This document shows positions 6,310-34,127 of a stretch of DNA of 37,717 nucleotides, piece after piece. Position 1 is the stretch's first letter. Every line of letters starts with the position of its first letter. The notes beneath the pieces are model-generated. The model ran no database searches, was not told where the DNA came from, and was given only the letters and a program-made list of their open reading frames with translations. The stretch comes from Gemmatimonadales bacterium (GTDB lineage Bacteria > Gemmatimonadota > Gemmatimonadetes > Gemmatimonadales > GWC2-71-9). Made by a program: the position numbers and the translations under genes. The DNA lies in NCBI GenBank assembly GCA_036265815.1, contig DATAOI010000067.1:1-37717 (forward strand), given 5' to 3'.

Positions 6310-6339
6310 AAGATGGCGGCGGCCGAGTCGGGGTGTCAA
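6310..6339 (-). promoter_or_regulatory. Candidate promoter for the small exported protein
   Basis: On the minus strand a consensus -35 box TTGACA (6339-6334) overlaps the selB stop codon. A weak -10 candidate, CATCTT (6315-6310), follows after an 18-bp spacer. This would give a leader of roughly 70 nt before the ATG at 6232. Only the -35 box is a strong match, so this is a suggestion. Confidence 0.3.
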
Positions 6340-8174
6340 GCGTTCCGAAGATGCCTCACGTCTCCCACTCTGACGGTGATGCCCCGGCCGTCGGCCCATT
6401 CGAGCAGCGGGATCAGGTACTTCCGGCTGATCCCCAGCCGGTCGCGCAGCGCAGCCGGCACGATGTCCCCAGCGTGCCCCAGCTCCACCAGCGTCTGGCG
6501 AAAGTGGTCGAGTGCCCCCCGGGCGTAATAGCGGTCGCGCTCCACGGCCTCGACTCGGCCGCTGGCCGCGGCCAGCCGCAGTACCGCGCCCACGTCGGCC
6601 CGTCCGCTCTGGCGCTGGAGCTCGGCCAGACTCGGCGGGCTCAGGTGGGCGGCCTCGACGAGGCCGACGATCCGGTCGATCTCCTCCTCCCCACCGGCGA
6701 CCCGCGGTGCGAAGCCCGCCAGCGCGGCCAGCCCCTCGAAGATCCGAATCCGACCGGGGGCGGACAGCTCGGCGAGCGCCGCTTCAACCAGCGACTCGGA
6801 CCCGTCGAGCGACCGGCGCAGCGTCTCCAGCGGCATGCCGCGATCGCTCGGATGTGAGCGATGATACGCCTTGAGGACCTCCAGTGCCCGCGCGGCGATC
6901 GCCTCGACCACTCCCGCGCCAAGCCAGAGCTCCCCCACCCGCCGCGACGATGCCTCCCGGGCGGCGCTCTCCGCCGCGCCACGCGGGACTCCAAGTATGA
7001 TCGGGAGCGCCGCCACCGGTATGCCGCCGGGATGCCGCTCGAGCAACGCGCCGAGTCGCTCGGCAGGGCGCCGGGAAGCGAGCGCCACGGGCCAGGTGCT
7101 TCGTCGGCCAGGAGGCTGGGGATCCAGCACCCGGCCGCCGCCGATCGTGGTCACCGGGCTGTAGCTCCGGAGCACGAAGCGATCCTCGCCCCGGGCCACC
7201 AGTGGCTCCTCCAGCCTGACCCGCGCGAGGCCGCTGCCGCCGGGCTCGATGGACGCGCGTGGTATGACCCGGGCCATCGCTTCCGCCGTCCCCAGATGGA
7301 AGCGTACCCGGGTCCGGTTGACCAATGGACGAGGCGCGTCCGGCTGGAGCGTGATCTCCACATCGAGCGCGCTGGCAGGAAGCCACGCCGAGCCGGGCGT
7401 GACTACCATCGCGCCCCGCTGCACATCGCTGCGCTCGATCCCCGCGATACCGAGCGCGGTGCGGGCGCCGGGCTCACTCCGGGCGAGGGAGCAGCCGTAG
7501 GATTCGATCGAGCGCACCTTCCCCTCCAAGCCGGAAGGCAGCAGCAGCACCGGATCACCCATGGCGACGCGGCCGGACCAGACCGTGCCGGTGACCACCG
7601 TGCCGACGCCCGCGACCGAGAAGGCACGGTCGACTGGCAGCCGGAAGAGATCGGCCACCGAGCGCTCTGGCAGCTCCGCCGCCAGGCTGGCCAGGCGGGA
7701 GCGGAGCTCCTCGATCCCTTGTCCCGTCTTCGCAGAGACGGCGATGGGAGCCTCGAAGCCGACCGATGAGGACGCCAAGCGCTGCGCGACCTCCGCCATC
7801 ACCAGCTCGAGCCACTCGGGCTCGACCAGATCGGCCTTAGTGAGCACCGGGATCGCGGCGCGGATGCCGAGCTGCTCGAGCACCGTCAGATGCTCCACCG
7901 TCTGGGGCATGATCCCTTCGTCCGCCGCCACCACCAGCAGCGCCAGGTCGATCCCCGACGCGCCTGCCACCATGGTGCGCACGAAGTCTTCGTGCCCGGG
8001 TACATCGACCACACCCGCCACCAGATCGGCCCCGAGCGGCAGGGGCGCAAAGTTGAGGTCGATCGTGATGCCGCGCCGGCGCTCCTCCGCCAGCCGGTCC
8101 ATCGGCCGGCCGGTCAGCGCCGTGATCAGGGCCGACTTCCCGTGGTCGATGTGGCCCGCCGTGCCCACGATCAT
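6336..8174 (-). CDS. selB: Selenocysteine-specific translation elongation factor SelB
   Basis: A 612-residue translational GTPase that delivers Sec-tRNA to UGA codons marked by a SECIS hairpin. The GTPase motifs are GHIDHGKS (residues 7-14), RGITID (34-39), DVPGHE (57-62), TKAD and VSAKTG. EF-Tu-like beta-barrel domains follow, then winged-helix repeats ending in RKYLIPLLEWAD and GDVRHLRNA, the signature of the mRNA-binding end of SelB. Length matches the family (about 610-640). The ATG overlaps the recO stop by 4 nt (ATGA), so it is coupled to recO and is the last gene of the long cluster. No selA, selD or tRNA-Sec gene is visible here, so they must lie elsewhere if the pathway works. Confidence 0.95.
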   Translation of the reverse strand: MIVGTAGHIDHGKSALITALTGRPMDRLAEERRRGITIDLNFAPLPLGADLVAGVVDVPGHEDFVRTMVAGASGIDLALLVVAADEGIMPQTVEHLTVLEQLGIRAAIPVLTKADLVEPEWLELVMAEVAQRLASSSVGFEAPIAVSAKTGQGIEELRSRLASLAAELPERSVADLFRLPVDRAFSVAGVGTVVTGTVWSGRVAMGDPVLLLPSGLEGKVRSIESYGCSLARSEPGARTALGIAGIERSDVQRGAMVVTPGSAWLPASALDVEITLQPDAPRPLVNRTRVRFHLGTAEAMARVIPRASIEPGGSGLARVRLEEPLVARGEDRFVLRSYSPVTTIGGGRVLDPQPPGRRSTWPVALASRRPAERLGALLERHPGGIPVAALPIILGVPRGAAESAAREASSRRVGELWLGAGVVEAIAARALEVLKAYHRSHPSDRGMPLETLRRSLDGSESLVEAALAELSAPGRIRIFEGLAALAGFAPRVAGGEEEIDRIVGLVEAAHLSPPSLAELQRQSGRADVGAVLRLAAASGRVEAVERDRYYARGALDHFRQTLVELGHAGDIVPAALRDRLGISRKYLIPLLEWADGRGITVRVGDVRHLRNA

Positions 8175-14315: not shown

Positions 14316-16902
<2,587 letters not shown>

Positions 16903-16943: not shown

Positions 16944-18755
16944 TCAGGACGCCGGCTTGCCGGCTGGCAAGGTAGCCACCCGTCCCCGCCCGGGCAACGC
17001 CGAATTGGGATCGAGCAGGCGGACGTCGATGTATTCCCCGACCACGCTGCGGAGCGCTTCGGAAACGTCGCTCGAGCTCGCGGCCGAGAGGGCGGACTCG
17101 GCCGCCTGCCGCGCGGCCGGCTCGGGCACGGTTCGCACCACCCATTTGACCAAGGGCAGCGCGGGCGGCGAGACGCTCAACTGGTCGTATCCCAGACCGA
17201 TCAGCAGCACGGCGCTCAACGCCTCCGACGCCATCTCGCCGCAGACGCTCACCGGCACACCCGCTGCACGGCCCACGGCGAGCACCTGCTGGAGCTGGCG
17301 CACGATCGAGGGGTGGTGAGGGGTGAACCGGTCGGCCAGTCGCGCGTTCCCACGATCCACCGCCATGGTGTACTGGGTGAGATCGTTGGTCCCCACGCTG
17401 AAGAAGGCGCTCACCTCGGCCAGCCGGTCGGCGATCAGCACGGCCGCCGGGGTCTCGATCATGACGCCTACCGGCACGGACTCCGCCGCCCGGATCCCAG
17501 CCGCCTTGAGGGCGGCCGCCTCCTCCTCCATCATCGCCCTGGCCTCCTCCACCTCCTCCACCAAAGTGACCAGCGGCAGCATGAGGCGGATATCGCGGCC
17601 GGCGGCCGCGCGCAGCACCGCGCGCAGCTGGGGCCGGAATACCTCGGGCTCATCCAGGCAGACCCGGATCGAGCGCCAGCCCAGGAACGGGTTGGCCTCC
17701 GCCGAGGTTTTGAACGCCACTGGGAACTTGTCGCCGCCGAGATCGTAGCTGCGGATCACGATCGGATGGTCGCGAAAAGCGGATGCGACCCGGCGGAAGT
17801 AGTCGGTCTGCTCGTCCTCGGTCGGCAGCGTGGCGCGGCCGGTGAGGAGGAACTCGGTCCGCAGCAGGCCAACCCCCTGGGCGCCGAAGCGGACGGCCTG
17901 CTCGATCTCCTCCGGCAGGTCGACGTTGCCCATGAGCTGGATCTCGCGCCCATCGGGCGTCACCGCAGGTGCTTCGACCACCGCCTCGAGCTGCAGCTCC
18001 AGGCGGCTCCGGCGGCTCACCTGTGTCTTGGCATCGTCCAGCTCGTCGCGGGTGGGGTCGAGGATGATCGTGCCGCTCTGCCCATCGAGCAGCAGCATCG
18101 TGCCGCCGGGGATCTGGGCGAGTGCGCCGACCGCGCCCATGACCGCCGGGATGCCGAGGGAGTGCGCCAGGATGGCGGCGTGGGCGGTGCGGGTGCCCTC
18201 CTCGCTCACCAGCCCGACCACGTGCTCGCGGTCGAGCTGCACGGTGAGTCCGGGGGAGATCTCCTGGGCCACCACGATCACCTGCTCGTCCGCGGGGATG
18301 GACCACAGCTCGTGCGCCGAGCGTCCCATCAGGTGCGAGAGCATCCGGAGCTGAATGGCGTTGAGGTCGGCCAGCCGCTCCCTCAAGCGGGCGGCCCCGG
18401 CCCAGTGGTTCCGGAATTCCAGTGCCTTGAATTCGTAGGCGGTCTCGGCGCTGAGCTGGTTGTTCCGGATCAGGGTCTCGACGGAGGCGAGGAAATCCCG
18501 ATCCTGCGCCATGAGGATCTGGGCGTCGAAGATGCGGGACTCCTCGGGGCCGGCGCGCTGGAGCACCCGTTCGCCCAGCTCGGTGAGGTGGGAAACGACG
18601 TACTCCACTGCCTCGTGCAGGCGGCGCACCTCGGCGTCGACCTGGTCGGGGCGGACGGCCCGGTCGGGAACGTCGGGAAATTCCCAGCGCACGACGAAAG
18701 CCGGGGCGCAGACCACCCCTGGCGAGACGCCGATTCCTCGAAGTGCGCGAGTCAT
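16944..18755 (-). CDS. ptsI: PTS enzyme I (PEP-protein phosphotransferase)
   Basis: A 603-residue enzyme that takes phosphate from PEP and passes it to HPr. The N-terminal phosphohistidine domain carries [18 protein letters not shown] with the active His at residue 192. The C-terminal PEP-binding barrel includes [38 protein letters not shown] and the active Cys segment [10 protein letters not shown]. The ATG at 18755 ([13 protein letters not shown]) follows the HPr stop after 2 nt. Length is near the usual 570-600, with a slightly long C-terminal tail. The Man-type EII genes and HPr lie directly upstream, so it most likely serves that system. It is not the nitrogen-type enzyme I, since no GAF domain is present. 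Confidence 0.95.
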
Positions 18756-18757
18756 GG

Positions 18758-19024
18758 TCACTCCTCTCCGAATCCGCTGGCCACCAGCTTCGCGAGTGCC
18801 TCCACGGCCTGCGCGGCATCCGGGCCATCGGCCCGGATGATGATCGAGCTGCCGCATTCCGCCGCGAGCATCATCACGCCCATAATGCTCTTCCCGTTGA
18901 CCCCCACTCCATCCTTGGCGAGCTCCACCTCGGAGTTGAAGCTGCTGGCCAGGCGCACGATTCTCGCGGCCGGGCGGGCGTGCAACCCGTCGCGGTTCAC
19001 GATGGTGGCTTCTCGCTCGATCAC
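18758..19024 (-). CDS. ptsH: HPr phosphocarrier protein
   Basis: An 88-residue HPr. GLHARPAA places the catalytic His at residue 15, and NGKSIMGVMML places the regulatory Ser at residue 46, exactly the classical numbering. His-15 is phosphorylated by enzyme I and passes phosphate to EIIA; Ser-46 is the target of HPr kinase, whose gene lies five genes upstream. The GTG at 19024 overlaps the EIID stop (GTGA), and the frame further upstream is shadow over EIID. Retention of both sites argues for a dual catalytic and regulatory HPr. Confidence 0.96.
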   Translation of the reverse strand: MIEREATIVNRDGLHARPAARIVRLASSFNSEVELAKDGVGVNGKSIMGVMMLAAECGSSIIIRADGPDAAQAVEALAKLVASGFGEE

Positions 19025-19755
19025 AGTCCGACCCACCGGAAGAACAGCAGCAGCGCCACGGCGAGCAAAGCGAACCGCACCGTGGTGAGCGCAGTGCCGT
19101 ACCAGCGGGTCACGGCCGCGCCCACCACAGCCACGGCCAGCGCGCCGACCCCGCCCGCCCAGCCGAAACCGGTGAGATACCAGCCCGCCACCACCGGTAC
19201 CGCCGCCCCGATGGTGAATCCCGCTACCGGGCCGATCCGCTCGATGGCGCGCGGAACCCAGGAGCCACCGATGGCCGCGCCCACCCGCATGCCCGAGTCG
19301 AACCCGGTGCGAAGCGCCCAGACCGCGGTGCCGAGCCGGAGCAGGTTGTAGCCGAGCAGGAGACCGGCGATGGCCCACCAGCCGGCGCCCAGGACGGCCG
19401 CCACCAGGGCAGCACCGACCAGTGCCGGTACCAGCCCGGCCCAGAACAGCTCATCCCCCATGGCGCCGAGCGGGCTGCAGAGCGCCCGGCGCAGCCGGTC
19501 GATCTGGTCGCCGGGGACCGCCTCGTACTCCGCCCGGACGGTGGCGCCGAGCGCGAGTCCGGCGAGGTTGGGGTTGCAGTTGAAGAACTCGGTCGACCGG
19601 ACCACGGCCTCGCTGTGCCGCACCGGATCCACGGTCTTGAGGTCCTCCAGCAGCGGCTCCGCCGCGTAGCCTATGCCGACGCCGAGCATGCGCTCGTAGT
19701 TCCAGGTCCCCTGCACGGCGAAGAGCCGGAGCAGCGCCCGCCAGCCGCCGGTCAC
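19021..19755 (-). CDS. PTS mannose-family EIID subunit
   Basis: A 244-residue membrane protein of the EIID-Man family, which pairs with EIIC to form the sugar channel. Recognisable segments are LRLFAVQGTWNYERMLGVGIGYA at the start (positions about 19665-19737), EFFNCNPNLAGLALG and LCSPLGAMGDELFWAGLVP. The membrane part is at the C-terminal end (residues about 110-244). At 244 residues it is shorter than the usual 270-300. The GTG at 19755 overlaps the EIIC stop, and its own stop overlaps HPr, both as GTGA. The transported sugar cannot be inferred; no sugar kinase or isomerase specific to it is adjacent. Confidence 0.9.
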   Translation of the reverse strand: MTGGWRALLRLFAVQGTWNYERMLGVGIGYAAEPLLEDLKTVDPVRHSEAVVRSTEFFNCNPNLAGLALGATVRAEYEAVPGDQIDRLRRALCSPLGAMGDELFWAGLVPALVGAALVAAVLGAGWWAIAGLLLGYNLLRLGTAVWALRTGFDSGMRVGAAIGGSWVPRAIERIGPVAGFTIGAAVPVVAGWYLTGFGWAGGVGALAVAVVGAAVTRWYGTALTTVRFALLAVALLLFFRWVGL

Positions 19756-20432
19756 CGCAGCACCGCCAGCAGGATGCCGGCGGCGACGCCCGCCAGCAGC
19801 CATTTGAGTCGAGCGCCCCGGCCCGCGCTCCGGACCGCGCCGCCGGCGGCGGCGGAGATGCCCGCGCCGATCACGACGAGGGTGAGGCCCACCGCGGTGC
19901 GCCGGTCCAGGTGCACGTAACGGGTCATGCCCGATGCGAGGGCGAGTCCCAGGAGCGTGAGGCCCGCTCCGCGCGCGGCGTCGCGCAGCAGCGCCCCGTA
20001 CTGCAGCCGGCGGATCGCCCGGCTCTCCCCGGCGGCCAGCGCGGCGGCGTGCTGTTGAATCGCCCGCGCATTCGACCGCCGCACGAGCTGCAACGTCCAC
20101 CCGCCGAGCACGGCCAGCAGCAGGCCGAGGGTGACGCTCAGCCCCAGGCCCAGCTCCCAGGGAGCGCCGGCGGCGAGGGTCGCGGCGGCCACCGTGGCCG
20201 GTCCGTAGTCAGGGTAGCGCACCGCCCCAATTGGGAGCACGTCGAGCGCGAAGAGCTCCAGCAGCACTCCGACCCTGAGGCCGGCTTCGAGGTCGCCCAC
20301 CAGCCAACCCGCCACGGTTCCCGCGACCAGCGGCCGGGAGAGCATCGCCTGGGGAACGCTCACCAGGTCGAGCGCGACCAGAGCGCCCCAGAGCACCAGG
20401 AGGCCGGCCGCGTGCAGTGGCAGCTCGCTCAT
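19752..20432 (-). CDS. PTS mannose-family EIIC subunit
   Basis: A 226-residue polytopic membrane protein of the EIIC-Man/Sor family. The family core is visible as SVPQAMLSRPLVAGTVAGWLVGDLEAGLRVGVLLELFALDVLPIGAVRYPD (positions about 20207-20361), including the conserved PIG...PD turn. It is short for the family (usually 250-270). The ATG at 20432 overlaps the EIIB stop by 4 nt (ATGA) and was preferred to the 176-codon upstream extension, which lies over EIIB and has shadow composition. Together with EIID it would form the membrane part of the system. Confidence 0.9.
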   Translation of the reverse strand: MSELPLHAAGLLVLWGALVALDLVSVPQAMLSRPLVAGTVAGWLVGDLEAGLRVGVLLELFALDVLPIGAVRYPDYGPATVAAATLAAGAPWELGLGLSVTLGLLLAVLGGWTLQLVRRSNARAIQQHAAALAAGESRAIRRLQYGALLRDAARGAGLTLLGLALASGMTRYVHLDRRTAVGLTLVVIGAGISAAAGGAVRSAGRGARLKWLLAGVAAGILLAVLR

Positions 20433-20905
20433 GGCAGCGACCTGAGCGCCACCGCCGCCGTGGTCGGCAGGTCCTGGGCGGAGACGTCGGCACCGGCCGC
20501 CTCGATGGCGAACAGGCGGCGCAGCTCGTCGTCGGTCAGATACAGATAGGGGAGCCGCTCCCGCCGGCCCGGCCGGTGGTGGATGCCGCCAAGGTTGATC
20601 CGGTGAACCGCCACCGGGTTGGCGGTGTGGAGCGCGCCCATGGTCTCGACGTCGCCGGTCAGGATCAGTCCCCGCCGTCCGTTGGAGCTGAGCTCGGGCA
20701 GCAGGGCCGACGCGTCGGCCAGCGTGACGAACCGGATCTCGATCTCCGGGGAGAGCGCCATCCGGTAGAGCTCCTGCTCCCAGGGGCTCGCGGCCACGGT
20801 GTCGTCGACCAGCACGATGAGGTCGATGCCCAGCGGCCGACCCCAGCCGATGACCACCTGGCCATGCACCAGCCGGTCGTCCACCCGGCACAGCACGATC
20901 GCCAT
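20429..20905 (-). CDS. PTS mannose-family EIIB subunit
   Basis: A 158-residue cytoplasmic EIIB of the Man/Fru/Sor family. RVDDRLVHGQVVIGW is the family signature, with the phosphorylated His at residue 14. The length is normal for a free-standing EIIB (about 160). EIIB passes phosphate from EIIA to the incoming sugar. The ATG at 20905 shares one base with the EIIA stop (TGATG). Separate A and B genes, rather than an EIIAB fusion as in E. coli ManX, match the arrangement of many non-enteric Man systems. Confidence 0.94.
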   Translation of the reverse strand: MAIVLCRVDDRLVHGQVVIGWGRPLGIDLIVLVDDTVAASPWEQELYRMALSPEIEIRFVTLADASALLPELSSNGRRGLILTGDVETMGALHTANPVAVHRINLGGIHHRPGRRERLPYLYLTDDELRRLFAIEAAGADVSAQDLPTTAAVALRSLP

Positions 20906-21279
20906 CAGGGGATCCGGATACCCTTGGCGCCGGCGGCGGCCGCCCGGCTCGCGGCCTCATCGGGCGGGAGCGCGCGGTGGAAGACGAAATCGACCAGCAT
21001 GGCGAGGTTCACGCCGGTCACGACCTTGACGCCGTCCATTGCGCGGAGCCGGTTCAGCACCGCGAACAGGCAGGAGCCACTGGCCAGGTCGACGAAGACG
21101 ATGGCCGGGCCATGGTCCACCGCCCCGGCGACCCGGTCCTCCAGGGTGCCACGGTCACAGCCGGTGTTGGACACCGGGGTGAGCGCGTCGGCGACGCCGC
21201 TGATCTGCACCGCCGCATCGACCAGCGCCTTGGCCAGCGCCCCATGGCAGACCACCACGCCGCGGAGCGACTCACTCAT
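20905..21279 (-). CDS. PTS mannose-family EIIA subunit
   Basis: A 124-residue EIIA-Man domain protein. The segment GVVVCHGALAKAL puts the phosphorylated His at residue 12, with Cys in place of the common Ser before it. IVFVDLASGSCLFAV corresponds to the conserved TDLxGGSP loop. The ATG at 21279 (MSESLRG) was chosen because the family begins a few residues before this beta-strand; an ATG seven codons upstream is the alternative. It overlaps hprK by 8 nt. In many proteobacteria a homologous EIIA follows rapZ in an hpf-hprK-rapZ operon; here it follows hprK directly. Confidence 0.92.
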   Translation of the reverse strand: MSESLRGVVVCHGALAKALVDAAVQISGVADALTPVSNTGCDRGTLEDRVAGAVDHGPAIVFVDLASGSCLFAVLNRLRAMDGVKVVTGVNLAMLVDFVFHRALPPDEAASRAAAAGAKGIRIP

Positions 21280-22234
21280 AGTCTTCCTGGAGATACTCAC
21301 GCACCCCGCGTTGCTCCTTCATCCGCTTGATCAGCCGCTGGTTGAACGCCGCGGCCACGTCCACCCCGGAGTAGCGCAGGAGGTGCATCATCGCGACCAC
21401 CTCCGAGATCACCGTGATGTTCTTTCCCGGATTGAGCGGCACCACGACTCGCGGCACCGCGACGTCCAGAATCATGGTCTCCTCCCGGGCGAGGCCGGTC
21501 CGGTCGGTGTCACGGGCGGTCTCCCAGTCGTCCAACTGGACCACCACCTCGATCCGCTTCTGCTGCCGCACCGAGCGGACGCCGAACAGCGCCGGGATGT
21601 CGATCAGCCCGATGCCCCGGATCTCCATGTGGTGTGCCGCGAGCTCGTGTCCTCGGCCGATCAGCACGTCGTTGCCCCGGCGGGTCACCTGCACCACGTC
21701 GTCGGCAACGAGCCGGTGCCCACGCTCGACCAGATCGAGCACGCACTCGCTCTTGCCGATCCCGGAGCGGCCGATGAAGAGGAGCCCGACGCCGTACACA
21801 TCCGCCAGCGACCCGTGCAGCGTGGTGCGCGGGGCGAAGGCTTCTTCCACAATCGGCTTCACCCGGCGGTAGAACTCCGCGGTCTTGAGCTTGGTCCGGA
21901 GCACCGGCACGCCGCGCCCCCGGGCCAGCTCGAGCAGCTCGGCCGGCACCTCCAGCCCCTTGGTGACGAAGATGCAGGGAAGGTCGAACCCGAAGAACTT
22001 GGTGAGGGTCGACTGCCGCTCCTCCGCGGCCAGGGAGTTGAGATAGGTGATCTCGGTCTCGCCGAAGACATGGATACGGTTGGGGGCGAACCGGCCGGTG
22101 TAGCCGGCCAGCGCCAGGCCCGGGCTCGCGACTTCGGCTTCCGGCAACTGGCGGTCCAGCCCGAGGTCCCCGGTCAGGGCCTCGAGCTGGAGCGGGTCAC
22201 CCCGCCGGGAGACGAAATCGCGGAGTCGGAGCAT
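21272..22234 (-). CDS. hprK: HPr kinase/phosphorylase
   Basis: A 320-residue bifunctional enzyme that phosphorylates HPr on Ser-46 and reverses this. The N-terminal domain (about 1-130) is followed by the catalytic domain: TLHGSLADVYGVG (His-140), Walker A GRSGIGKS (155-162), VADDV, HHMEIRGIGLIDI (the HprK signature) and VPLNPGKNI in the C-terminal region. All the residues expected of an active kinase and phosphorylase are visible. The ATG at 22234 shares a base with the hpf stop (TGATG), and the gene overlaps EIIA by 8 nt. Its target HPr is encoded in the same operon. Confidence 0.96.
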   Translation of the reverse strand: MLRLRDFVSRRGDPLQLEALTGDLGLDRQLPEAEVASPGLALAGYTGRFAPNRIHVFGETEITYLNSLAAEERQSTLTKFFGFDLPCIFVTKGLEVPAELLELARGRGVPVLRTKLKTAEFYRRVKPIVEEAFAPRTTLHGSLADVYGVGLLFIGRSGIGKSECVLDLVERGHRLVADDVVQVTRRGNDVLIGRGHELAAHHMEIRGIGLIDIPALFGVRSVRQQKRIEVVVQLDDWETARDTDRTGLAREETMILDVAVPRVVVPLNPGKNITVISEVVAMMHLLRYSGVDVAAAFNQRLIKRMKEQRGVREYLQEDYE

Positions 22235-22548
22235 CAGGAGGGCTTGGGCTCGGAGGGGCGGGAGCGCCGGGGGCGGGTGGACGCGCGCTCCAGCTGGCGG
22301 CGGAGCCGCTCTTCCGCGCGGTCCAGCGCGCTACGATGATCGGCTCCCTCGCCCCGGGCCACCAGGGTCTCGCCACCGGCCACGTGCAGCCGCACCTCCA
22401 CCGTCTGCTGGGTTCCCTCCGCGTCGAACACGACGGTCGACTCCATCGCCCGGGGGGCCATGCTCCCCAGCCGATCCACGATCGTCTGGGTGCGCTCCCG
22501 CAGTCCGTCGGAGATTTCGCAGTGGCGGGCGGTGATCGTGGTCTGCAT
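22234..22548 (-). CDS. hpf: Ribosome hibernation promoting factor, short form
   Basis: A 104-residue HPF/YfiA-type protein. It starts MQTTITARHCEISDGLRER, the beginning of the S30AE domain, and continues with the beta-strands VVFDAEGTQQTVEVRL and VARGEGADHRSALDRA. It lacks the extra C-terminal domain of long HPF and ends in a basic, Pro-rich tail. HPF binds the 30S decoding region and helps store idle ribosomes as dimers. The strong ribosome-binding site AGGAGG is about 6 nt before the ATG at 22548. It lies 16 bp after the glycosyltransferase and is the lead gene of the hpf-hprK-PTS block, an old association seen in many bacteria, often with rpoN upstream (not here). Confidence 0.92.
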   Translation of the reverse strand: MQTTITARHCEISDGLRERTQTIVDRLGSMAPRAMESTVVFDAEGTQQTVEVRLHVAGGETLVARGEGADHRSALDRAEERLRRQLERASTRPRRSRPSEPKPS

Positions 22549-22564: not shown

Positions 22565-23686
22565 TCAGCCCAGCGCCGAGCCGGCGATGATGTCTTCGAG
22601 ATGACGCTCAGTCATGTCCGCGGTGCGATCCCAGGTCAGCCCTTTTGCGAACGTCCGGGCGGCTCGGCCCAGCCGCTCGACCAGCGCGGGCGCGCTCGCC
22701 AGCTCCAGCATTCGGGCGCTCAGCGCCGCCACGTCGCCGTGCGGCACCAGGAACCCGGTCTCTCCATGCCGCACCGAGTCGCGCAGCCCGGGGCTGTCGG
22801 AGGCCAGCGAGAGAGTGCCGCACGCGGCCGCCTCCACGACCGTGATGCCCCAGCCCTCCTTGGGCGACGGAAAGACGTTGGCCCAGCAGCTTCTGAGCAG
22901 CGCCAGCTTTTCGGCGTCGCTGACGAACCCATGGAAGGTTACCGCGTCGGCCACTCCCAGGCTGGCGGCCAGGCGCTTGAGCTCCGGACCATGGTTGCCG
23001 GCGCCAGCGATGTCGAGCCGGAGGTCGGGGCGCAGCCGGCGGCTCACGGCCAGCGCTTGGATGGCGAGCCCTATTCCTTTATAACGCTTCAGCCGTCCCA
23101 CGTACAAGAAGCTGGGCGCCGCCGTCCGGGGGACCGCCGGATCGGGCGCGTAGTGGACAGCGTCCACCCCGGGATGGATCACTCGCACTCGGCCGGGCGG
23201 CACCCCGCGTCTTACCAGATCGTCACGGGTGCTCTCACTGATCGCGTGGAACGCCGCGTGACGATAGGCCCGCGCCAGCGGCCGTTCCGCCGCCCACACC
23301 GTCGCCGCGATCGGCCAGGACGCCTCCTGGAACGCGGTCTCGCCGAACAGGTGGGGAACGATCGCACAGAAGGGCAAGTTGGTGACACCGGCCAGGAAGA
23401 GCGGGAGCTTGTTGATGTCCTCCACCAGGATATCGGGGCGTCGCTCGCGCAGCGCGGCCCGGACAGCGCCTCGCCCGCGGAGCGCGAAGCTGTTGCGTCC
23501 GCCCACCCGAAGCACATCCACACCATCGACCCACGCTCGGGCCGGGGCCAGGCCCCAACCGGAACAGACCAGGCGCACCTGGTGCCCCCGCGCCGCCAGC
23601 CGGGAGAAGATCTCGAAGAGATGGATCTCCGCGCCGCCCGCTTGCGGATTCAGGCGGTCCTGCCAGTTGACGACCAGAACGTTCAT
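22565..23686 (-). CDS. Glycosyltransferase family 4 protein
   Basis: A 373-residue GT-B glycosyltransferase. The N-terminal domain begins MNVLVVNWQDRLNPQAGGAE, with the GGAE loop. The C-terminal domain has FLYVGRLKRYKGI, a nucleotide-sugar region and SPKEGWGITVVEAAACGT, the GT4 E-x7-E-type signature. It probably uses a nucleotide-activated sugar for a lipid- or cell-surface-linked glycan, but donor and acceptor cannot be read from sequence. The ATG at 23686 was taken because the 19 codons upstream are Arg/Pro-rich and lie in the gap after nusB. Neighbours nusB (25 bp) and hpf (16 bp) do not help define the pathway. Confidence 0.9.
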   Translation of the reverse strand: MNVLVVNWQDRLNPQAGGAEIHLFEIFSRLAARGHQVRLVCSGWGLAPARAWVDGVDVLRVGGRNSFALRGRGAVRAALRERRPDILVEDINKLPLFLAGVTNLPFCAIVPHLFGETAFQEASWPIAATVWAAERPLARAYRHAAFHAISESTRDDLVRRGVPPGRVRVIHPGVDAVHYAPDPAVPRTAAPSFLYVGRLKRYKGIGLAIQALAVSRRLRPDLRLDIAGAGNHGPELKRLAASLGVADAVTFHGFVSDAEKLALLRSCWANVFPSPKEGWGITVVEAAACGTLSLASDSPGLRDSVRHGETGFLVPHGDVAALSARMLELASAPALVERLGRAARTFAKGLTWDRTADMTERHLEDIIAGSALG

Positions 23687-27485: not shown

Positions 27486-28547
27486 CTACGTGCCCGTGCG
27501 GCCGGTGAACCGCACCACGGCTCGCCCGGGCCGGATCTCGCCCAGACGCCAGGCGGCCACGCCCTCCGCCTCGGCGGCCTGCTGCGCGGCCGGTACGGCG
27601 TCGGGCGGCAGCACGGCGATGAAACCGACGCCGAGGTTGAAGACTTCCCGCATCTCGTCGGTGGAGATCTGTCCTGCATCCTGCAGTGTCGCGAAGAGCG
27701 GCGGCAGGCTCCAGGAATCAGCATCGACCACCGCCTCGGTGCCCTCACGAAGTATTCGCACCAGGTTGCCCGGAATGCCGCCGCCGGTGATGTGGGCCAT
27801 TCCGTGCATCCGGCCGAGGACCGGCATCACGCTGCGGAAATAGCTCCGGTGCACGGCGAGAAGCGCATCGGCCACGCGCCGGCCGGTGCCGGGAAGTGGA
27901 TCGTCCAGCTTGAGCTGCATCCGCTCGAAGAGGATGCGTCTGGCGAGGGTATAGCCGTTGGTGTGCAGGCCGCTGGAGGCGTACGCCAGCAGCACGTCGC
28001 CCGGCATGATGGCATCCCCGTGCAGCGCGGCGTCCTCGTCCACCACGCCGACGATGGTGCCGGCGAGATCGTAGGTGCCGCTCCGGTACAAGCCCGGCAT
28101 CTGCGCGGTCTCGCCTCCGGCCAGCGCCATGCCGTGGACCCGGCAGCCGCGGGCAATGCCTTCGACCAGCCCGGCGATCTGCTCCACGCCGAGCGCAGAC
28201 CCGGCGATGTAGTCCATGAACGCAATGGGCACGGCACCGTGCACCAGGATGTCGTTCACGCTGTGATTGACCAGGTCCTCGCCCACGCTGTCGAACCGAT
28301 TCGCCTCCAGCGCGACCAGGACCTTGGAGCCGACCCCGTCGGTGCTGAGCACCAGTGTCGGACTCCGCATCCCCGCCGGCACCCGCACCATTCCGCCGAA
28401 GGCTCCGACCTTGCCGACCGACAGCGCTGTCCGGGTACCGGCCACGGCGGCCGTGATCCGCGCCTTGGCCGCCTCGGCCGCGACGAGATCGACCCCCGCA
28501 GCCGCGTACTCCCGGGCCTCCGTCCGGATCTCACCCGTGCTCTTCAC
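27486..28547 (-). CDS. purM: Phosphoribosylaminoimidazole (AIR) synthetase
   Basis: A 353-residue ATP-dependent ligase closing the imidazole ring of purines (FGAM to AIR). Conserved segments are YAAAGVDLVA, LVLSTDGVGSKV, DLVNHSVNDILVHGAVPIAFMDYIA, ALAGGETAQMPGLY, SSGLHTNGYTLAR and HITGGGIPGNL. It starts with GTG at 28547 in a GTGA overlap with the PfkB-type kinase. AIR is also the precursor of the thiamine pyrimidine, but nothing else of that route is here. The length is normal. Confidence 0.96.
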   Translation of the reverse strand: MKSTGEIRTEAREYAAAGVDLVAAEAAKARITAAVAGTRTALSVGKVGAFGGMVRVPAGMRSPTLVLSTDGVGSKVLVALEANRFDSVGEDLVNHSVNDILVHGAVPIAFMDYIAGSALGVEQIAGLVEGIARGCRVHGMALAGGETAQMPGLYRSGTYDLAGTIVGVVDEDAALHGDAIMPGDVLLAYASSGLHTNGYTLARRILFERMQLKLDDPLPGTGRRVADALLAVHRSYFRSVMPVLGRMHGMAHITGGGIPGNLVRILREGTEAVVDADSWSLPPLFATLQDAGQISTDEMREVFNLGVGFIAVLPPDAVPAAQQAAEAEGVAAWRLGEIRPGRAVVRFTGRTGT

Positions 28548-29464
28548 GGCATGGCCTCGGCGAAGCTCACGTGGGTGAGGTCCTGGAATGCCCGGACCCG
28601 TGCCTCCACCTGTTCCCGGGTGATGCTCTCGAAGCCACGGATGCCAAACTGCTCGACCGCATAGGAGCCCATCGCCGCGCCGTAGACCATGGCCCGGCGG
28701 ATATTGTCCTCCGAGACGGTCCCCGTCCGGGCCAGATAGGCCATGAACCCGCCGGCGAATGCGTCGCCCGCGCCGGTCGGATCGAAGACGTTCTCCAAGG
28801 GGAAGGCGGGGACGTAGAACGTGCGGGTGGGCTCGATCAGGAGGGCCCCGTGCTCGCCTTGCTTGATGACCACCCGGGTGGGGCCGTTCGCGAGGATCCA
28901 GCGGCCGGCGCGATGGATGTTCCAGTCACCGCTCAGCTCCCGCGCCTCGCTGTCGTTGACCAGGAGCACGTCGACCCGGCTCAAGAGCTCGAGCAGCACC
29001 GACTTCTTCAGCTGGATCCAGTAGTTCATCGTGTCGCACACCACCAGCTTGGGCCGCTGGACCTGGCTCAGCACCCCGAGCTGCAGCTGCGGGTCGATGT
29101 TGCCCAGGAAGAGGAACTCGGCCGAGCGGAACGCGTCCGGCAGCTTGGGCTGGAAGTCGGCGAAGACGCCGAGCCGGGTCTCCAAGGTCTCCCGGCTCTG
29201 GAGATCGTAGGAATACTTTCCCTTCCAGCGAAAGCTCTCGCCCTGGGCGTGCTCCACACCCGACCAGTCGATGCCGCGAGGTGACAGCCGCTCCAGCTCC
29301 GCGAAGGGGTAATCGGAGCCCACCACGCCCACCACCTGCACCGGACAGAGCAGCGAGCCCGCAACGGCGAAGTAGACCGCCGACCCGCCCAGCGCGTCCG
29401 CGGTCTCGCCGAACGGCGTAAAGATGGAATCGAGCGCGATGCTGCCGACGACGAGGAGGCTCAT
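28544..29464 (-). CDS. PfkB/ribokinase-family sugar or nucleoside kinase
   Basis: A 306-residue ribokinase-fold kinase. GGSAVYFAVAG forms the N-terminal substrate-binding glycine pair, and DPTGAGDAFAGGFMAYLA is the PfkB signature 2 with the catalytic Asp in GAGD. The middle (ADFQPKLPDAFRSAEFLFLGNIDP, then CDTMNYWI) matches a widespread, uncharacterised PfkB subgroup rather than a named kinase. The gene begins 4 bp after argS and overlaps purM by GTGA. Adenosine kinase is one possible role, since AhcY in the same gene run releases adenosine, but this is inference from context only. Confidence 0.88.
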   Translation of the reverse strand: MSLLVVGSIALDSIFTPFGETADALGGSAVYFAVAGSLLCPVQVVGVVGSDYPFAELERLSPRGIDWSGVEHAQGESFRWKGKYSYDLQSRETLETRLGVFADFQPKLPDAFRSAEFLFLGNIDPQLQLGVLSQVQRPKLVVCDTMNYWIQLKKSVLLELLSRVDVLLVNDSEARELSGDWNIHRAGRWILANGPTRVVIKQGEHGALLIEPTRTFYVPAFPLENVFDPTGAGDAFAGGFMAYLARTGTVSEDNIRRAMVYGAAMGSYAVEQFGIRGFESITREQVEARVRAFQDLTHVSFAEAMP

Positions 29465-31548: not shown

Positions 31549-33084
31549 TCACGGCGCGCGGTAGACGCCCCAGACCTCGCGCATGGTATCGCTGATCTCG
31601 CCCAGCGTAGCCCGGGCGCGGACGGCGGCCAGGATCGGAGGCATGAGGGGGGCGGTGCCGGCCGCGGCCGCACGCAGCGAGGCGAGTGCTTCCCCGACCT
31701 TGGCCTGGTCCCGCGTCCGCCGGGCTTCGCCTACCCGGTTCCGCTGGCGCTCCTCCAGCGCGGAGAAGTCCGGCACCTCGAGCGCGAGCGGTGGCGATTC
31801 GTCGGTGAACCGATTCACCCCGACCACCACGAGATCTCCCGCCTCCTGCGCCTTCTGCACCTCGTACGCGCTCCGGGCGATCGCGTCCTGGAAAAACCCC
31901 AGCTCGATCGCCCGGGCGGCGCCGCCGAGCTGGTCCACCTGATCGATCAGCTCGCGCGCCCCGGTCTCGATCGCGTCGGTCAGGCTCTCGACGTAGAAGC
32001 TGCCGCCCAGCGGATCCACCACCTCGGCCACACCAGACTCGTAGCCCAGCACCTGCTGAGTGCGCAGCGCCAGCGTGGCCGAGGCCTGGGACGGCAGCGA
32101 CAATGCTTCGTCGTAGCCGTTGGTGTGCAGCGATTGCGTCCCGCCCAACACCGCGGCCAGGGCCTGCAGGGTCACCCGCACGACGTTGTTGAGCGGCTGC
32201 TGCGCCTGCAGGGTGACCCCACCGGTCTGGGTGTGGAATCGCAGTCGAGCGGTGGCATCTCCCGCCCCGAAGCGCTCTCGCACCAGTCTGGCCCAGAGAC
32301 GCCGGGCGGCGCGGAACTTGGCGGCCTCTTCCAGGACCTTGTTGTGACTGGCGAAGAAGAAGGAAAGCCGGGGGCCGAAGGCATCGACGGCGAGCCCCGC
32401 TTCGGTGGCCACCCGGATGTACTCCAAGGCGTTGGCCAGGGTGAATCCCACCTCCTGCACCGCCGTCGCCCCCGCCTCGCGCATGTGGTAGCCGCTGATC
32501 GAGATGGGGTTGAAGCTCATCCCCTCCTCGGTCACGAAGCGGAAGATGTCGGCCACCAGGCGGAGCGACGGCGCCGCGGGATAGATGTACGTCCCCCGGG
32601 CGATGTACTCCTTCAGGACGTCGTTCTGCACCGTCCCGGTGAGCCGGGCGCGCGGGATGCCCTGCTCCTCTCCCACCACCACGTACATGGCGAGCAGGAT
32701 AGCCGCGGTGGCGTTGATGGTCATCGAAGTCGACACCCGGTCGAGCGGAATCTCGCGGAAGAGCTCGGCGAGATCGTCTACCGTGTCGATCGCCACCCCG
32801 ACCCGCCCCACCTCGCCCAGGGACATCGGGTGATCCGAGTCGTAGCCCATCTGGGTCGGGAGGTCGAACGCGGTCGAGAGGCCCATCTGGCCAGCCGCGA
32901 GGAGCTGGCGGAACCGACGGTTGGTATCCTCGGCGGTACCGAACCCGGCATACTGGCGCATGGTCCAGAGCCGGCCGGCGTACATGTCGGGATAGATCCC
33001 GCGGGTGAAGGGGAACTCCCCGGGGCGGCCGAGATCTCGCGCCGGATCTCCGGCCCAGTCGCCGGGGCCGTACACCTTCGTCAC
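31549..33084 (-). CDS. Methylmalonyl-CoA mutase catalytic (alpha) subunit
   Basis: A 511-residue TIM-barrel subunit that uses adenosylcobalamin to interconvert methylmalonyl-CoA and succinyl-CoA. The substrate-contact segment GIYPDMY retains the Tyr that marks methylmalonyl-CoA specificity, and ARGTYIYP retains the matching Arg; isobutyryl-CoA mutases have Phe and Gln at these sites. [12 protein letters not shown] has the active His. The protein ends after the barrel and linker, without the DxHxxG cobalamin-binding domain, so a separate small subunit must be encoded elsewhere. The GTG at 33084 overlaps the fbp stop (GTGA). The frame upstream of it is shadow. Confidence 0.93.
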
Positions 33085-34127
33085 AAGGCCGGCTGGTAGT
33101 ACGAGCCGCTGACCCGGGAGGAGCTGAACACCCGCCGGATGGTGTCCGCCACGAACCCGACGTCTTCCCGTGAGCCGATCACCAGAGGCGTACGCTGGTG
33201 CAGGCTGGCGGGCACGATGTCGAGGATTCGGGCCACTCCGTCGGTGGCGCTCCCCTCGGCCTGCTCGGCGAGAAAGGCCATCGGACTCGCCTCGTAGAGC
33301 AACCGGAGCTTGCCATTCGGGTTCCGGGTATCGGCTGGATAGAGGAACACGCCCCCGCTGATCAGGTTGCGGTGAAAATCCGCGACCAGTGAGCCGATAT
33401 ACCGGCTGTTCTTGGGCTTGAGCCCGTCGGGTATGTCCCCTTTGAGGCCCCGCACCGCCGTCTGCACCGCCTTGTCCCAGCGGCCGAAGTTGCTCTCGTT
33501 GACGCTGTAGTAGGTGCCGACTCTGGGCGTGATGATCTTGGGATGCGAGAGGAGGAACTCGCCAATCGTGGGGTCGAGGGTGAACCCGTGGACTCCCTGG
33601 CCCGTGGTGTAGACCAGCATGGTGCTGGAGCCATACATCACGTACCCCGCCGCCACTTGGCGGCATCCGGGCTGGAGCACGTCGGCGGAGGTCCCCCGCC
33701 CCTCCAGACTGACCCGCCGATAGATGCTGAAGATGGTCCCGACCGCGGAGTTCACATCGATGTTGGAGGAGCCGTCGAGTGGATCGAACAGCACGGCGTA
33801 CTTGCCCGCGGGATATTCCGGCGGCACCGGGATGATCTCAGCATCTTCCTCCGATCCCATGGCGCACACCCGGCCCGTGTGCTTGAGACAGTTCTTGATG
33901 GTCTCGTTGGCCAGCACGTCGAGCTTCTGCTGGCGCTCGCCCTGCACGTTCTCTCCGCCGGCGGCACCCAGGACATCGACCAGGCCCGCCCGGCGGATGG
34001 CGGCCGCGATCAGCTTGGCAGCCAGCGCGATATCGTAGAGCAGATTGGAGAGCTCCCCGGTGGCCTCGGGGAAGCGGACCTCCTGATCCAGGATGAAGCG
34101 CTCGATGGTGGTGACGGATGTCTGCAC
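33081..34127 (-). CDS. fbp: Fructose-1,6-bisphosphatase, class I
   Basis: A 348-residue gluconeogenic phosphatase. [20 protein letters not shown] is the metal-binding signature, [10 protein letters not shown] contributes Glu ligands, and [15 protein letters not shown] and [19 protein letters not shown] belong to the substrate-binding C-terminal region. It begins with GTG at 34127 ([11 protein letters not shown]), preceded by a modest G-rich ribosome-binding site. It is 62 bp after comEC, the largest gap in the right-hand group, so its own promoter is possible there. Its stop is coupled to the mutase gene. Confidence 0.96.

Follow-up and report, generated by a model that had tools for sequence, protein, structure and literature searches.

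The window, the whole 37,717-nucleotide stretch of DNA analyzed here, carries a gene block that probably encodes a complete, vertically inherited Man-family PTS with an HPr kinase, of the rpoN-cluster type and working as proposed below. We consider it most likely to be a working sugar importer whose relay also serves regulation, rather than a sensor-only device. It represents a phylum-wide, single-copy Man-PTS with an HPr kinase where 190 of 200 genomes gave no PF02378-type permease, and its natural loss intermediates, in which transport and regulation come apart, bear on the origin of regulatory PTS relays. In our literature search we saw no earlier work on this PTS in Gemmatimonadota.

Results

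All genes of the block lie on the minus strand. The leading gene, hpf (22234..22548), encodes a ribosome hibernation factor-like protein of 104 aa (PF02482, E 3e-14; TIGR00741, 39.3 bits, slightly below the cut-off of 40.9) and is followed by hprK (21272..22234), encoding an HPr(Ser) kinase/phosphorylase of 320 aa (TIGR00679, 343 bits against a cut-off of 240). Then come a Man-family EIIA (20905..21279; 124 aa, phospho-His12; PF03610, E 2e-11), a sorbose/Man-family EIIB (20429..20905; 158 aa, phospho-His14; PF03830, E 9e-33), the Man-family membrane subunits EIIC (19752..20432; 226 aa; PF03609, E 3e-18) and EIID (19021..19755; 244 aa, GTG start; PF03613, E 2e-25), HPr (18758..19024; 88 aa, GTG start, His15 and Ser46; PF00381, E 8e-32) and EI (16944..18755; 603 aa, phospho-His192; TIGR01417, 474 bits against a cut-off of 342). 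Adjoining genes overlap by 1–8 bases, and HPr and EI are separated by 2 bases. A GT4-family glycosyltransferase gene lies directly upstream (22565..23686, minus strand; PF00534, E 3e-39) and metK downstream (15667..16902, minus strand; TIGR01034, 563 bits against a cut-off of 309), both being conserved neighbors by synteny. A scan for transcription signals told little: it gave 1 promoter-like site where 0.8 would be expected, and for terminator-like sites the count was 6 with an expectation of 3.9.

Pfam curated cut-offs were passed by EI (PF05524/PF00391/PF02896), HPr, the N- and C-terminal domains of HprK and hpf, and all four Man-PTS domains (EIIA-man, PTSIIB_sorb, EII-Sor and EIID-AGA) also scored above theirs. 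Together with the coordinates, this bears out the initial annotation of a single hpf- and hprK-led block with EI, HPr and EIIA to EIID. The EIIA-man of the block is the only one in the window genome. Against NCBIfam TIGR00828/00822/00854/00824 the EII subunits scored 73.9, 50.6, 82.6 and 26.3 bits, respectively, compared to cut-offs of 292.75, 339.85, 163.6 and 98.35, and for this reason we do not place them in these subfamilies, which are close relatives of characterized transporters.

No sugar-catabolic gene linked to the block was found. The earlier remark that no sugar enzyme is nearby holds for the genes adjacent to the block but not for the window, which contains, away from the block, a PfkB-family kinase (28544-29464) and a class-1 fructose-bisphosphatase (33081-34127). 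The kinase was rejected as a 1-phosphofructokinase (TIGR03828, 41 bits against a cut-off of 292), and its nearest solved chain, 3kd6, is named simply as a carbohydrate kinase.

The phosphorylation sites are strongly conserved. HPr His15 and Ser46 were each present in 125/125 sequences and the EIIB phospho-His in 116/116. The phospho-His of EI occupied 122 of 124 rows, with 2 gapped, and that of EIIA occupied 65 of 96, the other 31 being gapped there through start choice. HprK His140 and Gly160, which we take to be the catalytic His and part of the P-loop, were found in all 85 aligned sequences. With TIGR00679 above its cut-off and these two elements present, HprK has the features of an HPr kinase/phosphorylase and would phosphorylate HPr-Ser46. 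Where dN/dS was computable, it was 0.04–0.19 for EIIC, 0.09–0.26 for EIID and 0.03–0.20 for EI; EIIA reached 0.83 in one pair, and HPr gave 1.30 in one pair with a suspect alignment.

The initial annotation had singled out EIIC and EIID as short. They are indeed shorter than E. coli ManY and ManZ, whose PDB chains have 266 and 283 residues, but this is the norm of the phylum (median lengths 222 aa for EIIC and 244 aa for EIID). The residues absent from the short subunits are C-terminal parts, and the sugar-binding core is retained. The predicted EIIC model (pLDDT 91.1) matched ManY (6k1h_B) with Z 19.6 and rmsd 3.3 over 217 aligned residues, and the EIID model (pLDDT 91.5) matched ManZ (6k1h_C) with Z 17.1 and rmsd 2.6 over 188, its last 54 residues falling outside the alignment. 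In these models both subunits adopt the Man-PTS fold (Z about 17–20), at 21–29% identity to solved Man-PTS chains.

Conservation was followed in alignments of closed ORFs from the named loci plus the window (63/72 ORFs for EIIC in A3 and 61/79 for EIID in A4); two further alignments, A1 and A2, used 34 of 38 and 32 of 39 closed ORFs plus the window. In both subunits conservation was higher in the N-terminal, core-containing parts than in the C-terminal ones (p 3e-5 for EIIC and 5e-9 for EIID). Asn19 in the EIID pocket, present in 62/62 rows, aligns with Asn28 of Lactococcus lactis PtnD, where the substitution N28K is described as abolishing mannose uptake (PMC10783117). In EIIC, Asp22 is only a tentative counterpart of L. 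lactis PtnC Asp25: the turn near the pocket (residues 25-27) has pLDDT <50 in the model, and in an HMM alignment to Lactococcus garvieae EIIC it is the invariant Gln28 that falls opposite the Gln following this Asp. Degenerate, truncated membrane subunits were rejected on the phylum-wide lengths, the Man-PTS folds and purifying selection.

Among 200 Gemmatimonadota genomes, EIID was found in 162, as a single copy in each, and the listed matches were free of internal stops. The canonical seven-gene order on one strand occurs at 62 of the 80 named loci, and many of the other 18 lie on short or end-cut contigs. Four of the 18, loci of roughly 20 kb (L063, L098, L125 and L127), lack only a detected EIIC, as judged by profile. 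EIIC and EIID distances correlate with those of metK and ribBA (rho 0.68–0.79, 49 loci). EIIB/C/D have been lost repeatedly, with the losses grouped by clade, and soluble HprK, HPr and EI remain in genomes without them; HprK and HPr together are retained in 21 of the 38 EIID-less genomes. As far as gene content goes, the soluble relay is kept longer than the permease.

In most of the phylum the block sits beside rib-nusB and metK, apart from rpoN. The absence of RpoN noted earlier does not hold for the window genome, which carries rpoN on another contig (G000:C30:91752-92228) and so is not an RpoN-less genome; RpoN is present in 198/200 genomes. RapZ is missing as stated, but as a phylum-wide trait (1/200 genomes with a marginal match), which rules out its loss as a local peculiarity. 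Linkage of rpoN with hpf-hprK-ptsH-ptsI was not seen in the window genome but was seen in three loci: in L138 and L048 rpoN directly adjoins the block, and in L034 it adjoins hpf-hprK-HPr-EI. In one family rpoN-hpf-hprK-A-B-C-D-HPr-EI is contiguous, and the window block therefore looks like a relocated rpoN-cluster PTS. Since rpoN is split from the block in the window genome, we do not file it as a standing member of the rpoN cluster (EI-R); it is likely a derived, split form of it.

The initial annotation had proposed looking for PTS-regulation domains elsewhere in the genome. PRD domains were found in 0/200 genomes, which removes PRD-type regulators as an output. Two PtsN-like proteins are encoded in the window genome; their TIGR01419 scores of 79.9 and 78.2 bits lie below the cut-off of 138.7. 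Such EIIA_2 proteins (E<1e-15) occur in 181/185 genomes with any of EIID, HprK or HPr compared to 2/15 without, counts that represent genomes and not events because the losses are clustered by clade. The PtsN-like proteins track the relay and not the permease; two EIID-containing genomes (G141 and G163) are without EIIA_2. From this co-occurrence, the HPr of the block may phosphorylate PtsN. A hallmark of PTS-Ntr is an EI (PtsP) with an N-terminal GAF domain, and Pfam found no GAF domain in the EI of the block. A CcpA-like LacI partner was also considered. LacI matches were found in 13/41 genomes, and the sole match in the window genome was weak (27.8 bits), so there is no conserved LacI partner.

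Discussion

What the sequence shows is the gene content, the conserved sites, the predicted fold, the selection on the genes, their synteny and the series of losses; the mechanism we propose builds on these. EI would draw phosphate from PEP and pass it through HPr-His15 and EIIA-His12 to EIIB-His14, which would phosphorylate the sugar carried by the EIIC/EIID elevator. HprK, with ATP, would phosphorylate HPr-Ser46 and throttle the relay. Stand-alone PtsN-like EIIA proteins are probably also phosphorylated by the EI and HPr of the block, and the relay would in that case report PEP/energy status whether sugar is present or not. The block would formerly have adjoined rpoN and LPS genes and, in most Gemmatimonadota, have since shifted to the rib-nusB/metK region.

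The initial annotation favored a phosphorylation sensor over an importer. A regulatory role of the relay stands, as HprK, HPr and EI persist without EIIB/C/D, Ser46 is invariant and two PtsN-like proteins are present; a degenerate or sensor-only permease is not supported, given the retained core, EIIB His and EIID Asn and the purifying selection. In the strict form of the sensor reading, EIIC and EIID would bind sugar without carrying it, and binding would change how EIIB, EIIA and HPr are phosphorylated. We regard this as unlikely. The lack of catabolic linkage and the retention of the relay where EIIB/C/D are gone are consistent with it, and a separate glucose-type PTS in the window genome, with its own EIIA-HPr-EI fusion, could do the importing. 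Against it, the EIIB His is invariant, the EIIC/EIID core is conserved, the fold agrees with that of transporting Man-PTS chains, and the phylum offers no PRD output device. Moreover, a PF02378 EIIC, a PTS permease of another type, occurs in only 10/200 genomes, leaving the Man-PTS as the only permease found in most.

Recovery of cell-wall or LPS sugars, that is, recycling of envelope amino sugars, appears less likely still. E. coli ManXYZ has been related to glucosamine intermediates of the cell wall, as described in PMC3162934. The block or its relay adjoins LPS genes or rpoN in L048, L138 and L034, a GT4 glycosyltransferase often adjoins the block, and the best NCBIfam matches of EIIA and EIIB are of galactosamine type. 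These matches are weak, with scores far under cut-off, and the LPS linkage is gone in most of the phylum. A vestigial, slowly decaying permease retained merely through its position inside an important operon is very improbable: of all components EIIC shows the lowest conservation (41.9% mean identity), and EIIB/C/D have been lost repeatedly, but the low dN/dS, the invariant sites and the single copies in 162/200 genomes, stop-free within the listed matches, speak against it.

We return to the importer with a regulatory relay and to its known relatives. The EIIC/EIID fold, the EIID motif QGSWNY and the phospho-His chain are shared with E. coli ManXYZ and the Lactococcus/Listeria Man-PTS (6k1h, 8hfs, 7vlx, 9wjr). 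Unlike in these systems, EIIA and EIIB are separate and HPr, EI and hprK lie within the block; compared to ManXYZ, the window EIIC stops near ManY 227 and EIID aligns only to ManZ 211. As in PTS-Ntr, described in PMC13104625, the genome has PtsN-like proteins and RpoN, but its EI is without a GAF domain, HPr takes the place of NPr and RapZ is missing.

A close likeness is also seen to the rpoN cluster described by Comas et al. 2008 (PMC2405797), with hprK, ptsH, ptsI (EI-R type by position), IIA-Man and putative IIB/IIC/IID, a Man-class PTS given there as putative in Desulfovibrio vulgaris and proposed for the proteobacterial ancestor. Unlike the D. vulgaris cluster, to which it is likened by its published description, the Gemmatimonadota cassette is phylum-wide and mostly off rpoN, beside rib-nusB/metK. 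The block looks like an intact form of a cluster that other bacteria may have reduced to regulation only. We tentatively suggest, as a possibility we rate below an even chance, that Gemmatimonadota retain this ancestral-type rpoN-linked Man-PTS and that living members display the decay of importer to regulator at one fixed locus. In that reading A-B-C-D gives way stepwise, first to A alone, next to none and finally to HPr-EI alone. For Xanthomonas and Brucella the PTS is described as incomplete and regulatory (PMC6916182 and PMC2937029). It resembles loci L038 and L040, where HprK or a Man-type EIIA accompanies soluble PTS proteins and a permease is lacking; the window differs in retaining EIIB, EIIC and EIID. 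If the suggestion is true, regulatory relays of the Xanthomonas/Brucella type descend from a sugar importer via permease loss, a course that can be tested inside one phylum.

The window PTS and its distribution

On the minus strand, the window PTS genes run hpf, hprK, EIIA, EIIB, EIIC, EIID, HPr and EI, with 1–8-base overlaps between neighbours from hpf through HPr and a gap of 2 bases between HPr and EI. The genome carrying them spans 4.59 Mb in 119 contigs. Pfam confirmed all eight components, and the initial annotation of a complete EI, HPr and EIIA–EIID chain with hpf and hprK in one block was thereby borne out. HprK, EI and HPr passed their NCBIfam cut-offs (TIGR00679, TIGR01417 and TIGR01003, respectively), and hpf narrowly missed its own. 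Because EIIA, EIIB, EIIC and EIID all scored well under the cut-offs of their NCBIfam subfamily models, the window PTS represents a divergent Man-family branch.

EIID was found in 162 of 200 phylum genomes, as a single copy in each, and HprK in 182 of 200, one of them (genome G136) under the curated cut-off. The best 80 of 159 EIID relatives were assigned to Gemmatimonadetes/Gemmatimonadota or lower taxa, with four exceptions: loci L085 (Bacterium HR33), L108 (Longimicrobiales), L123 (unidentified) and L125 (Candidatus Kutchimonas). Seven components lay in canonical order on one strand in 62 of the 80 named loci, with ribD-ribE-ribBA-ribH-nusB-GT4 recurring upstream and metK (ahcY, DUF151) downstream. 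EIIC was undetected by profile in L063, L098, L125 and L127, loci of ~20 kb with the other six components; it is either divergent or broken there. Elsewhere in the window, a PfkB-family kinase (28544–29464; closest solved chain 3kd6, E 2e-96) is a recurrent neighbour of purM and rib genes, and 6336–8174, judged by eye, is presumably selB (selenocysteine elongation factor).

Integrity of the permease subunits

Median lengths over the loci were 222 aa for EIIC (213–234, n = 110) and 244 aa for EIID (n = 118; upper values inflated by start choice). The shortness of both subunits therefore stands as an observation and not as an oddity, being normal for the phylum. EIID ORFs of 329 aa, above this norm, occur at L050:7935–8924 and L023:1492–2481; HPr and EI were undetected after the former.

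The predicted EIIC model (pLDDT 91.1) aligned over 217 of 226 residues with E. coli ManY 2–227 (6k1h_B; Z 19.6, rmsd 3.3). Residues 1–190 of the EIID model (pLDDT 91.5) matched ManZ 16–211 (6k1h_C; Z 17.1, rmsd 2.6), and the last 54 were unaligned. Judged from these models, EIIC lacks its C-terminal tail and EIID residues within its C-terminal part, and both are predicted to retain the sugar-binding core. A study of the L. lactis transporter describes mannose uptake as abolished by PtnD N28K and by PtnC D25Y, changes close to the sugar pocket (PMC10783117). By alignment, PtnD Asn28 corresponds to window EIID Asn19, which is Asn in 62/62. PtnC Asp25 had no clear counterpart in window EIIC, where the loop is poorly modelled. 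Wherever dN/dS could be computed for EIIC and EIID, it was low. At L140, a block in genome G048, EIIC is 43% identical to that of the window, compared to 78% for EIID; this EIIC, which has no dN/dS value, looks frameshifted or misassembled.

Conserved residues along the chain were EIIB His14 (116/116), HPr His15 and Ser46 (125/125 each), EI His192 (122/124, the remaining 2 gapped) and EIIA His12 (65/96, the other 31 gapped through start choice). EIIC and EIID distances tracked those of metK and ribBA across 49 loci, which fits vertical inheritance. For Man-class transporters, Comas et al. name horizontal transfer as the chief driver (PMC2405797).

The window genome also carries a glucose-type PTS on another contig (G000:C71, locus L032:5251–11263), comprising an 849-aa EIIA(Glc)-HPr-EI fusion, EIICB (PRK11089, 765 bits against a cut-off of 647) and trehalase, with a TonB receptor adjoining. 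This system is a patchy addition, since PF02378 EIIC occurs in only 10/200 phylum genomes. In most genomes, the searches for Man-type and PF02378 EIIC detected no permease other than the Man-type block.

The relay without a permease

HprK and HPr were both kept in 21 of the 38 EIID-less genomes, HPr only in 2 (G066 and G120, the latter assembly possibly broken) and neither in 15; HPr itself was searched in 40 genomes. The syntenic position is occupied by hprK-EIIA-HPr-EI in L038 and L040, by hprK-HPr-EI in L037 and L039, and by HPr-EI in L041. Conversely, HprK was missing in only one of the 162 EIID-positive genomes, G034, whose EIID sits at a contig end. The initial annotation proposed that the system may act mainly as a phosphorylation-based sensor rather than a sugar importer. 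The relay kept without a permease speaks for a regulatory role; with sugar-binding cores predicted to be retained, a block acting as a sensor only seems unlikely, and we consider that the Man-type block is probably an importer plus regulator.

Among the 185 genomes with at least one of EIID, HprK and HPr, 181 had EIIA_2 (PtsN-like, E<1e-15), compared to 2 of the 15 that had none of the three (Fisher p 3e-15, inflated by shared ancestry); this co-occurrence suggests that HPr may feed PtsN. The window genome encodes two such proteins (L033:9514–9966 and L134:8561–9013). One gene is flanked by a radical SAM gene with PEP carboxylase and, on the opposite side, by a class II tRNA synthetase; the second precedes a large TPR-like protein. 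PRD regulators, which carry the PTS-regulation domains to be looked for elsewhere in the genome, occurred in 0/200 phylum genomes. LacI regulators were patchy (13/41 genomes).

rpoN and the origin of the block

RpoN, noted initially as absent, is present in the genome, on contig C30. We take the genes before it to be kdsA, kdsC, kdsD, lptC, lptA and lptB, and those after it to be glycosyltransferases. L138 has rpoN as a 259-aa C-terminal part (sigma-54 match at G177:C18:6640–7116), directly followed by hpf-hprK-A-B-C-D-HPr-EI. L048 has the same order with a Pfam-confirmed rpoN, and metK-ahcY-DUF151 downstream. At L034, from a different class, genes for a SIS-domain protein, an LptA-like protein, an ABC ATPase and rpoN lead into hpf-hprK-HPr-EI without EII. 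The simplest reading of these gene orders is that an rpoN and PTS cluster was split, and that its PTS half moved to the rib-nusB/metK region.

The Man-type block is a divergent, phylum-wide PTS of familiar type, and offers a useful evolutionary series. In their picture of the rpoN-cluster PTS, proposed for the proteobacterial ancestor, Comas et al. give D. vulgaris as the example (PMC2405797). Gemmatimonadota fit this rpoN-cluster picture, from outside the Proteobacteria.
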